Source: Candidatus Berkelbacteria bacterium
GTDB taxonomy: Bacteria; Patescibacteriota; UBA1384; JACPKC01
Direction: 5' to 3'
NCBI GenBank assembly: GCA_016198415.1
Contig: JACQIO010000003.1
Span: 1-35,032, forward strand
DNA length: 35,032 nt
Part shown: in pieces, positions 27,444 to 33,286 of the stretch
Layout: every line of letters starts with the position of its first letter
Numbering within the stretch: the first letter of the stretch is position 1
The notes under the pieces: generated by a model
Told to the model about the DNA's origin: nothing
Seen by the model: the letters and a program-made list of their open reading frames with translations, nothing else
Databases searched by the model: none
Program-made: the position numbers and the translations under genes

Positions 27444-27487
27444 AGAATACTTGCAGGATTGACAAAGTTCAATACCTACACAATACT
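27444..27487. promoter_or_regulatory. Back-to-back promoters with interlocked -35 boxes (first TrmB module)
   Basis: Plus: TTGACA (27459-27464), 17 bases, AATACT (27482-27487). Minus: TTGAAC (27472-27467), 17 bases, TATTCT (27449-27444). The two -35 boxes are separated by two bases in the near-palindrome TTGACAAAGTTCAA. Confidence 0.75.
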
Positions 27488-28310: not shown

Positions 28311-28568
28311 ATGACACTCACCAATGACGACCTTCAGAAGATCAAGGCCGTCGTGGATTCTGGACACGAGTTGACTCGCTCATACGTCGATCAGAAGATC
28401 GAAGGGCTTCGCAAAGACATGGCAACGAAACAAGATCTCCTACTGCTGGAGGAGCGTCTGAACGGCAAAATTGATTCCGTCAAACAGATGCTCGAGGAAA
28501 ACCACGCGGCAACAGTGGGTGACGTTGAGCTCCTCAAGTCGCAGGTCGCCCAGCCCCAAGCTAAGTAG
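28311..28568 (+). CDS. Small coiled-coil protein (paralogue 1)
   Basis: 85 aa, MTLTNDDLQKIKAVVDSGHE at the start, then a long charged helix with the ATKQDLLLLEERL segment and heptad-spaced Leu, Ile and Val. The start region, ATK-x-L segment and spacing match the protein at 30525-30788. Such short coiled coils with ATKxDL repeats are frequent in candidate-phyla genomes; their role is not established. It follows TrmB 1 by 26 bases but has its own promoter and no Shine-Dalgarno site. Confidence 0.8.
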   Translation: MTLTNDDLQKIKAVVDSGHELTRSYVDQKIEGLRKDMATKQDLLLLEERLNGKIDSVKQMLEENHAATVGDVELLKSQVAQPQAK

Positions 28569-28632: not shown

Positions 28633-29496
28633 CTAAATCTTGAGTCGGAACTGGAGCGTTGTCGCTCCGGTTTTTGTGTTGTAGTCCAGGAGGAGGATCT
28701 CCTCCTTGGAGAAGTCGTGCCGCCAGCCGAGGATCAGCTCGGAACTAGTCGGCAGGTTATCGACGCGGAGGGCAAGGCTGTCCTGCCACGCGCCGTCGGC
28801 GTGCCGCGTCACCGGCAGACGGAGCTGCTCGAAGTGGCGCGAGCCGAGCTTCGAGTCGACCCACTCGGCCTTGAGCTCGAGCGCATCGAGCCGAACCGTC
28901 AGGTCGGCGCCGGTGGCCGGCTCACGGCTGAGTCGCTGGCTGGCGCCGAGCGTGACGCCGCCGGCTGGCTGCCACTCCAGGCGAGCGACCCCATACCCGC
29001 CGCCCGTATACTTGGGTCCGCCGATCGCCAGAGCGTCGGCGAAGATCCCGGCCTTGAACGTGAGCTCGTCACCGACCTTCTGCGCCACCGAGATCCCCGG
29101 GTTACGGAGCGGGACGTCGGCGTAGAGCGGCGGGCGACTCGTCGTGTCGAAGACGTATGGGTACTGGGCAAGAGCCGCCCCAAAGGGCGGCGCCTGCTGC
29201 CCGAGCGTCCAGGTGGTGTCCCTGTCCCTGAGCTCGAGCTGCCCCTTGATGAGGGGCTGGTGCCCAAACGGGTCGAGCAAGAGTAGGAATCGGTGACCGC
29301 CGTCGATGGGCTGCTTGACCACGATCGTCGTGGCCGGCAGTGGGAACCGGTCGCCCAGGTGGATCACCTGATCCCGGACTGTCGTCGATCCGCTCCAGAT
29401 GAGCTCCAAGTTCACCTGTGTCTCCGATGCCTCCTGCGCCAATACCGGCACTCCCAGAAAAAGGCCGATCACCACTACGAGCAAAAGCTTCTTCAT
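28633..29496 (-). CDS. Secreted beta-rich protein, porin-like
   Basis: 287 aa from ATG 29496 (MKKLLLVVVIGLFLG) with GGAGG eight bases upstream; a TTG five codons earlier is rejected. A clear signal peptide ends VPVLAQEA. The mature part alternates polar and hydrophobic residues in strand-length stretches: TTIVVKQPIDGGHRFLLLLD, LTFKAGIFADALAI, VTLGASQRLSREP, LTVRLDALELKAEWV, LALRVDNL, SELILGWRHDF, ATTLQFRLKI. This looks like a beta barrel or beta-propeller-like surface protein. An outer-membrane porin would be unexpected if the organism is a monoderm candidate-phylum bacterium. It is divergent from TrmB 2 and shares its operator. Confidence 0.75.
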   Translation of the reverse strand: MKKLLLVVVIGLFLGVPVLAQEASETQVNLELIWSGSTTVRDQVIHLGDRFPLPATTIVVKQPIDGGHRFLLLLDPFGHQPLIKGQLELRDRDTTWTLGQQAPPFGAALAQYPYVFDTTSRPPLYADVPLRNPGISVAQKVGDELTFKAGIFADALAIGGPKYTGGGYGVARLEWQPAGGVTLGASQRLSREPATGADLTVRLDALELKAEWVDSKLGSRHFEQLRLPVTRHADGAWQDSLALRVDNLPTSSELILGWRHDFSKEEILLLDYNTKTGATTLQFRLKI

Positions 29497-29588: not shown

Positions 29589-29633
29589 AGTATAGGTGAA
29601 AACCTTGACAATGTCAATAGTTTCACGTATATT
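29589..29633. promoter_or_regulatory. Perfectly interlocked divergent promoters on a symmetric operator (second TrmB module)
   Basis: Plus: TTGACA (29605-29610), 17 bases, TATATT (29628-29633). Minus: TTGACA (29617-29612), 17 bases, TATACT (29594-29589). Both -35 boxes lie in one 13-base palindrome. Outside it, GTGAAA (29596-29601) and TTTCAC (29621-29626) add a second symmetric half-site pair. GTTTCACG recurs at 29665-29672, near the TrmB start. Confidence 0.85.
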
Positions 29634-29676
29634 GTGATGAAAATATACCTGAAGCATTGGTAGGGTTTCACGCGCG

Positions 29677-30411
29677 ATGAACATTGATTTCCTTCAGGAG
29701 CTCGGACTAACCCAGCGAGAGGCTGAGGTGTACACCAGCCTCCTCAAGTTGGGCGAGGTACCGATCGCCAAGCTCCTCAAAACCACCGGCGCGCACCCAC
29801 AAGTGGTGTACCGTGCTATCGATAGCCTGGTGGCCAAAAAACTTGTCCTCGTTGCCCAGAGAAAGCACCGGAAGTACGTGAAAGCCGAAGACCCTCGAAT
29901 CCTCGAGCAGATCGAGAAGGATCGGCTCGAGGAGCTCCAGCAGGAGCTCCCGAAGCTCTTGGCGCTCCAGACGGAGACGACGGAGTCGATCGTCCGTGTC
30001 CACAAGGGGGTCCCGGCTGTCCGTCGCTTTCGCAAAGCCTTCGTTGAGGACATTGCCGAAGGCGGACTCCTGCGTATCCTCGGGGGTTCCGGTGATCGGT
30101 TCTATCAGGTGATGGGTGAGACGTTTCCCAAAATTGAGGCGCTCCGCGAGAAGAAGCGGATCCGGCGCCAGCTCATCAGCTACCGCTCCCAGCAGGCGGG
30201 CCTGGAAACTCGTGACTCTCAGACAGCGCTCGTGGAGCGGCGCTACTTTGACGAGCCCTTCCCTGTTCCGGCTTCGATTCTCGTCGGCGACTCATTCATC
30301 GGCATCTTTATCTGGACTGGCGAGCCACTGGCAATTCAAATTGAGAATCCCGAGGTGGTCCGAACCTATCGCGATCACTTCGATTCGCTCTGGAAGCTCG
30401 CCAAGCCATAG
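29677..30411 (+). CDS. TrmB-family transcriptional regulator (2)
   Basis: 244 aa from ATG 29677; no Shine-Dalgarno site. The winged helix (about 4-75) reads LQELGLTQREAEVYTSLLKL, then PQVVYRAIDSLVAKKLVLVA. The linker helix and effector domain match TrmB 1: SIVRVHKGVPAVRRFRKA, LLRILGGSGD, REKKRIRRQLISYR, and the tail TYRDHFDSLWKLAKP. It is divergent from the secreted beta-rich protein and very probably represses or activates it from the shared operator. TGG-TAGGGT ten bases before the ATG is a second possible promoter. A fragment of another TrmB tail lies just after its stop. Confidence 0.88.
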   Translation: MNIDFLQELGLTQREAEVYTSLLKLGEVPIAKLLKTTGAHPQVVYRAIDSLVAKKLVLVAQRKHRKYVKAEDPRILEQIEKDRLEELQQELPKLLALQTETTESIVRVHKGVPAVRRFRKAFVEDIAEGGLLRILGGSGDRFYQVMGETFPKIEALREKKRIRRQLISYRSQQAGLETRDSQTALVERRYFDEPFPVPASILVGDSFIGIFIWTGEPLAIQIENPEVVRTYRDHFDSLWKLAKP

Positions 30412-30524: not shown

Positions 30525-30788
30525 ATGGCACTGACCAACGACGATCTGAAGAAGATCAAGGCGGCGATTGACGCTCGCGCTGATTTGCAGGACGCGAAGA
30601 ACGAGCGTCAGTTTGAAGCACTCCAAAACACGATGGCGACGAAGGCAGAACTCCACGAGGCTGAAGATCGTCTCTCTGGCAAGATTGAAGAGGTCAAGGA
30701 GATGCTCACCGAAGACATTCACGTCCTCGGCGGCGACGTCCGCACCCTCAAACGCCGCGTTCGCATGAAAGATCGAGCACAAGCGTAG
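30525..30788 (+). CDS. Small coiled-coil protein (paralogue 2)
   Basis: 87 aa starting MALTNDDLKKIKAAIDARAD, then NTMATKAELHEAEDRLSGKI and a charged helix with heptad hydrophobic residues. It is clearly homologous to the 28311-28568 protein, and both follow a TrmB gene and have the same leaderless-type promoter. It may oligomerise or partner with the regulator, but nothing in the sequence proves this. Confidence 0.8.
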   Translation: MALTNDDLKKIKAAIDARADLQDAKNERQFEALQNTMATKAELHEAEDRLSGKIEEVKEMLTEDIHVLGGDVRTLKRRVRMKDRAQA

Positions 30789-31464: not shown

Positions 31465-31513
31465 TTGGATCAGGTAAATATATGTAGTATAGTGTCAGTT
31501 ATACTGACACTAT
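31465..31513 (+). promoter_or_regulatory. Promoter and operator of the third TrmB gene
   Basis: TTGGAT (31465-31470), 17 bases and TATAGT (31488-31493). Two 11-base arms (31489-31499 and 31503-31513) with a three-base centre form a perfect inverted repeat running from the -10 to the AT of the start codon. A protein bound there would block its own gene. Confidence 0.75.
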
Positions 31514-32380: not shown

Positions 32381-32424
32381 AAAGTGTACCGTAACTCGAC
32401 GGCCGTTTGGTTATGGTACACTTT
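32381..32424 (+). promoter_or_regulatory. 44-bp inverted repeat over the PaaX-like gene promoter
   Basis: Arms starting AAAGTGTACC and ending GGTACACTTT flank a CGACGGCCG centre; most positions pair. TGG-TACACT (32414-32422), an extended -10, lies in the right arm. The sequence closely matches 6075-6112 read on the minus strand. Autoregulation by the gene product is likely. Confidence 0.7.
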
Positions 32425-33252: not shown

Positions 33253-33286
33253 GGTCCATAATCAGACGGCCGTCTGATTATGGACC
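33253..33286. repeat. 34-bp perfect palindrome, GGCC centre
   Basis: Seventeen bases, ending CAGACGG, are followed by their exact reverse complement. The GACGGCCGTC centre is shared with 6075-6112 and, in part, 32381-32424; the CATAAT arms resemble 18344-18381. It lies between convergent genes. Confidence 0.85.

Follow-up and report, generated by a model that had tools for sequence, protein, structure and literature searches.

Interlocked divergent promoters and a candidate off-axis operator at a TrmB-type regulator gene of a Candidatus Berkelbacteria bacterium

In the 35,032-nt stretch of Candidatus Berkelbacteria DNA analyzed here (hereafter, the window), the gene for a TrmB-type regulator (trmB2) and a divergently oriented gene for a probable secreted protein are preceded by two near-consensus, sigma-70-type promoters that interlock at their -35 elements. 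Such a pair would admit only one polymerase at a time, and the reading we favor, at about even confidence, is that a TrmB2 dimer binds off the axis of the pair, on its own -10, repressing its own gene and leaving the divergent promoter free.

Read from the sequence, positions 29589-29633 are AGTATA GGTGAAAACC TTGACA A TGTCAA TAGTTTCACG TATATT. The promoter scan gave TTGACA-17-TATATT on the plus strand for trmB2 (-35 at 29605-29610, -10 at 29628-29633) and TTGACA-17-TATACT on the minus strand for the divergent gene (-35 at 29612-29617, -10 at 29589-29594), each with 11 of the 12 consensus bases and a 17-bp spacer. Both -35 hexamers lie within a palindromic core, TTGACAATGTCAA (29605-29617), and the promoters interlock at an offset of -7, each -35 falling inside the spacer of the opposite promoter. 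In its layout the pair corresponds to overlapping divergent promoters, with two opposed predicted promoters on common core promoter DNA. With start sites set seven bases past each -10, transcription is predicted to begin near 29640 (plus) and 29582 (minus), about 58 bp apart. No Rfam family was found near the site.

The trmB2 gene (29677-30411, plus strand) encodes a protein of 244 aa with an N-terminal TrmB winged helix (PF01978; E 3.9e-10, 39.9 bits against a cut-off of 25.6). This was the sole family found at E<=0.01; the C-terminal effector-binding domain PF11495, which is present in many archaeal members but not in all PF01978 proteins (PMC4158304), was absent, and no sugar-binding domain was found. 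Relatives of TrmB2 were found neither on plasmids nor, by sequence, in the PDB. The divergent gene (28633-29496, minus strand) starts at an ATG at 29496 with a GGAGG at ribosome-binding distance, and specifies 287 aa with a signal-peptide-like N-terminus. A homologue of this protein was not found in 380 genomes of the phylum, nor was a Pfam family, and single-sequence structure prediction gave a model of no use (pLDDT 32).

An earlier note on this DNA had described both 17-bp-spaced promoters, the 13-base palindrome and a GTGAAA/TTTCAC frame around it, all of which proved exact on re-reading, and had placed the axis of a symmetric operator on that of the promoter pair; the two axes do coincide, at base 29611, with 17 of 22 arm positions complementary. 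Its view that so exact a coincidence is unusual is in part tautological. The palindrome core is formed by the two -35 elements, and since two TTGACA hexamers one base apart with equal 17-bp spacers already produce a 13-base palindrome and near-symmetric -10s, only the 10 + 10 bases between the hexamers are independent, the rest of the symmetry being forced by the consensus promoters. What holds independently is GTGAAA/TTTCAC, with six contiguous matches among ten free positions (P ~0.001, hexamers fixed). GTGAAA occurs three times in the region (29596, 29621 and 29666; P ~0.008, hexamers masked), a value to be read in the light of the several shuffles, masks and thresholds tried on this one region, for which single P values near 0.01 carry correspondingly less weight. 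The sequence GTTTCACG (29665-29672), found in a repeat search just 5' of the trmB2 start codon, is an exact repeat of 29620-29627. The 13-mer TTGACANTGTCAA has a single copy in the organism's 738-kb genome; 55 class genomes hold 12 copies, and good -10s flank only the window copy on both sides.

A weaker interlocked pair (27444-27487) lies 5' of the paralogous trmB1. Its plus promoter is TTGACA(27459)-17-AATACT(27482) and its minus promoter, read by eye, is TTGAAC(27472-27467)-17-TATTCT(27449-27444), which matches at 8 of 12 bases; the offset is -8. An alignment of the regions upstream of trmB1 and trmB2 spans about 64 columns (shuffle P 0.002), and its indels, each one base long, do not alter any of the four 17-bp spacers. 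Each of the two regulator genes is followed by a small gene (28311-28568 and 30525-30788) coding for 85 and 87 aa, respectively, with 47% mutual identity, so that each regulator and its small gene resemble one copy of a module that has been duplicated. Inverted repeats were also seen elsewhere in the window. A perfect 11-base repeat, ATAGTGTCAGT-3-ACTGACACTAT (31489-31513), covers the start codon of trmB3 downstream of TTGGAT-17-TATAGT, and is likely an autoregulatory operator, while others flank a PaaX-like gene, with GTGTACCGTAAC...GTTATGGTACAC upstream (32383-32423) and TCCATAATCAGACGGCCGTCTGATTATGGA downstream (33255-33286).

No close relative and no orthologue was found in the family or order (3 genomes), nor any close relative in a further contig search, but a phylum-wide draw of 380 genomes for orthologues yielded a TrmB gene, designated L156, in a genome of another family (G222), the product of which is 43% identical to TrmB2. 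A search of that family for further orthologues found only this one gene to be close, and the phylogenetic footprint described here rests on it as one independent orthologue. Upstream of L156 the sequence reads TTGACAATGTCAAATGTTTCACTTAATATGTGATGA, and its counterpart in the window is TTGACAATGTCAATAGTTTCACGTATATTGTGATGA (alignment P ~0.0003). The core is identical at 13 of 13 positions, including the central base, and the promoters interlock at -7 in both. The L156 -10s are weaker (TAATAT and TAAATT), with the minus -10 matching at 4 of 6 positions. On the right side, 17 of 26 non-hexamer bases match (P 0.0001), and TTTCAC-N7-GTGATGA surrounds the trmB -10 at both loci with no difference in letters, spacing or position; on the left, only 9 of 26 match (P 0.26), the arm GTGAAA (29596-29601, plus strand, in the window) is lost, and 3 of 10 spacer bases agree. 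The alignment with this one relative, a kind of check that the earlier note had proposed, keeps TTTCAC and not its left partner, and we take it to decide between the readings. No relationship was detected between the divergent genes at these loci, so the promoter layout has been kept while the target differs.

The conserved right side points to TTTCAC-N7-GTGATGA (29621-29640), which straddles the trmB2 -10, as the likely TrmB2 operator. This pattern was formulated after the L156 alignment had been seen, and in its looser form (TCAC-N5-8-GTGA within 130 bp) it was found at only two of 122 TrmB genes with enough upstream DNA, namely trmB2 and L156, both with N7. The same two proteins share 18 of 21 residues in the recognition-helix stretch, with TGAHPQVVYRAIDSL identical, and in TrmB1 the recognition helix is altered and CAC-N6-GTG stands at the equivalent place with changed flanking bases. 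Characterized TrmB sites include TACT-N3-AGTA, TATCAC-N5-GTGATA and TACT-N7/8-GAGTA (PMC4158304). The predicted operator leaves the divergent -35 uncovered, with a gap of three bases between the two; two further members of the class have an exact operator half-site that begins 4-5 nt past the divergent TGTCAA, comparable to the 3 nt of TTTCAC in the window. Elsewhere in the organism's own genome, the half-site pattern is approached only inside open reading frames, one of them RuvB-like. A second inverted repeat, TTCACGTATATT-N8-AATATACCTGAA (11 of 12; right arm at 29642-29653, plus strand), was considered as a +1 operator and rejected, being neither significant in its segment nor conserved in L156. 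As a class-wide rule, +1 palindromes were not significantly enriched overall (6 of 70 at P<=0.05).

In the scheme we prefer, RNA polymerase would occupy the interlocked pair in one orientation at a time. When TrmB2 is not bound, the two promoters would compete directly. A TrmB2 dimer on the predicted operator, straddling its own -10, would silence trmB2 and keep the competing polymerase away, and the secreted-protein promoter would stay available, the operator center lying near -48 from its predicted start. For archaeal TrmB proteins, activation is reported from sites that lie upstream of a promoter, and repression from sites that lie downstream (PMC4158304). Competition between the two polymerases is well supported by the geometry, since their footprints must overlap, and by the interlock kept at -7 in L156. 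Sequence, geometry and conservation in one distant relative are what we observe; the start sites, TrmB2 as the binder and autorepression are inferred. The sign of the TrmB2 effect on the divergent gene is the least certain part of the scheme: blocking the trmB2 promoter should, if anything, favor the divergent one because both polymerases cannot bind together.

The earlier note had likewise proposed competing polymerases, which the overlapping footprints and the L156 offset bear out, but had a single regulator dimer silencing both genes from GTGAAA-N19-TTTCAC on the promoter axis. This operator was our first candidate and was dropped after the L156 footprint; we now regard it as unlikely, though worth keeping in mind. 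It would account for the uninterrupted symmetry of six bases lying outside the hexamers, which our preferred scheme leaves unused on the left, and for the threefold GTGAAA. Moreover, the window divergent promoter lacks, exactly where GTGAAA sits, the extended -10 (TGnTATAAT) found in 40 of 57 divergent promoters of the class, compared with 20 of 47 trmB promoters. Against this, L156 has not kept the left arm, the half-sites of the symmetric operator are 25 bp apart center to center, far wider than in known single-dimer TrmB sites (PMC4158304), and clear operators in the class have 3-6 nt between arms. The symmetric operator is possibly a window-specific addition.

A little less probable still is that the palindrome itself, or a composite of it with TTTCAC-N7-GTGATGA, is the regulator site, only the trmB2 promoter being real and the minus promoter a by-product. 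The complete conservation of the core in L156, down to its central base, would fit, as would a minus -10 of only 4 of 6 in L156 and a minus -35 of only 4 of 6 at trmB1. However, a separate TGTCAA-17 divergent promoter lies 5' of many class TrmB genes, and since operators differ among those that keep it, TGTCAA tracks the promoter and not the operator; in addition, the window minus promoter matches at 11 of 12 positions and precedes a gene with a ribosome-binding site. That interlock and symmetry are a chance or low-complexity resemblance devoid of regulatory meaning is very improbable, for although much of the symmetry follows from the consensus promoters and the window was picked after the fact, dinucleotide shuffling of the intergenic region, repeated 3000 times, never gave an interlocked pair of 10+/12 promoters, the 13-mer is unique in the genome, and the arrangement is conserved in L156.

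For 124 TrmB genes from 33 class genomes we collected the DNA upstream, and 122 of them had enough of it. At a threshold of 9.5, an own plus a divergent promoter was found in 59 of these 122 regions, a count in which part of the divergent promoter calls will be chance, the genomes being AT-rich; for other open reading frames at the same loci it was 6 of 118, and two of those six, at an offset of -7, are most likely extra copies of the window pair (giving ~4 of 116). Back-to-back divergent promoters are a usual layout of TrmB genes in the class, and interlocking is a rare extreme. In most regions the two -35s lie +10 to +60 bp apart, with the window pair (-7) at the extreme, and the distances (L011-L137) cluster near 11-12, 23-26, 35, 46, 55-60 and 77 bp, with a best period of 10.9 bp (P 0.005 under a smoothed null that ignores relatedness). 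One other interlocked pair, offset by -8 and with 10/12 promoters, occurs in G011, where it lacks the palindrome. The same genome has 18 TrmB genes at E<=1e-6 and, on contig C15, a stretch of 45 kb (about 80-124 kb) that holds about ten. At three class loci (L034, L038 and L019) and at window positions 29612-29627, near-identical words stand directly upstream of the divergent -35 (TGTCAATAGTTT) and are followed by locus-specific letters. We tentatively suggest that TrmB paralogues in this group of small-genome bacteria are local, one-locus switches, each divergent from its own unrelated target, in which binding at the regulator's own promoter would hand the shared site to the target, and in which -35 spacing at steps of about 11 bp would set the degree of polymerase exclusion, the window pair being the extreme.

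Overlapping divergent promoters are already known; the present case is set apart by its interlock at consensus -35s and its TrmB-type regulator. The Pr/Pc promoters of pLS20 with RcoLS20 (PMC4207663) resemble the window in that overlapping divergent promoters of regulator and target are controlled by that regulator, and a reciprocal -10/-35 placement has been proposed there. In pLS20, however, Pr is a weak promoter that depends on an activator, and switching relies on a second operator and DNA looping (PMC4207663), whereas both window promoters are near-consensus, interlock at the -35 and belong to a TrmB-type regulator. The tetR/tetA pair of Tn10 (Bertrand 1983, cited in PMC11686294) also has overlapping divergent promoters of repressor and target with the regulator acting on both, but there are two TetR operators, the target is antibiotic efflux and the regulator family is unrelated. 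The bidirectional promoters of Warman and Grainger (PMC12825309) share pseudo-symmetric DNA and two exclusive polymerase orientations; they differ in having a common -10 and starts commonly 10-23 bp apart (10, 18 or 23), whereas the window has separate -10s (29589-29594 and 29628-29633) and predicted starts ~58 bp apart. Basal activities of the E. coli bidirectional promoters tested were too low for competition (PMC12825309), a caution that may apply to the window as well. Archaeal TrmB/TrmBL1 operators such as TATCAC-N5-GTGATA (PMC4158304) are alike in being inverted repeats with similar half-site letters and a short spacer, and the window differs in its N7 spacer, its bacterial sigma-70-type promoter and a regulator in which no sugar-binding domain was found.

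Genome sizes of 0.5-1.4 Mb and the gene content may point to a Patescibacteria-type phylum. A literature search on TrmB together with Patescibacteria found no open paper, and next to nothing has been described of gene regulation in small-genome bacteria of this type. For a TrmB protein from bacteria, the window provides a concrete candidate operator and pairs it with a recognition helix, and because paired divergent promoters are common at TrmB genes of the class, a single footprint might give access to an entire series of local regulators.
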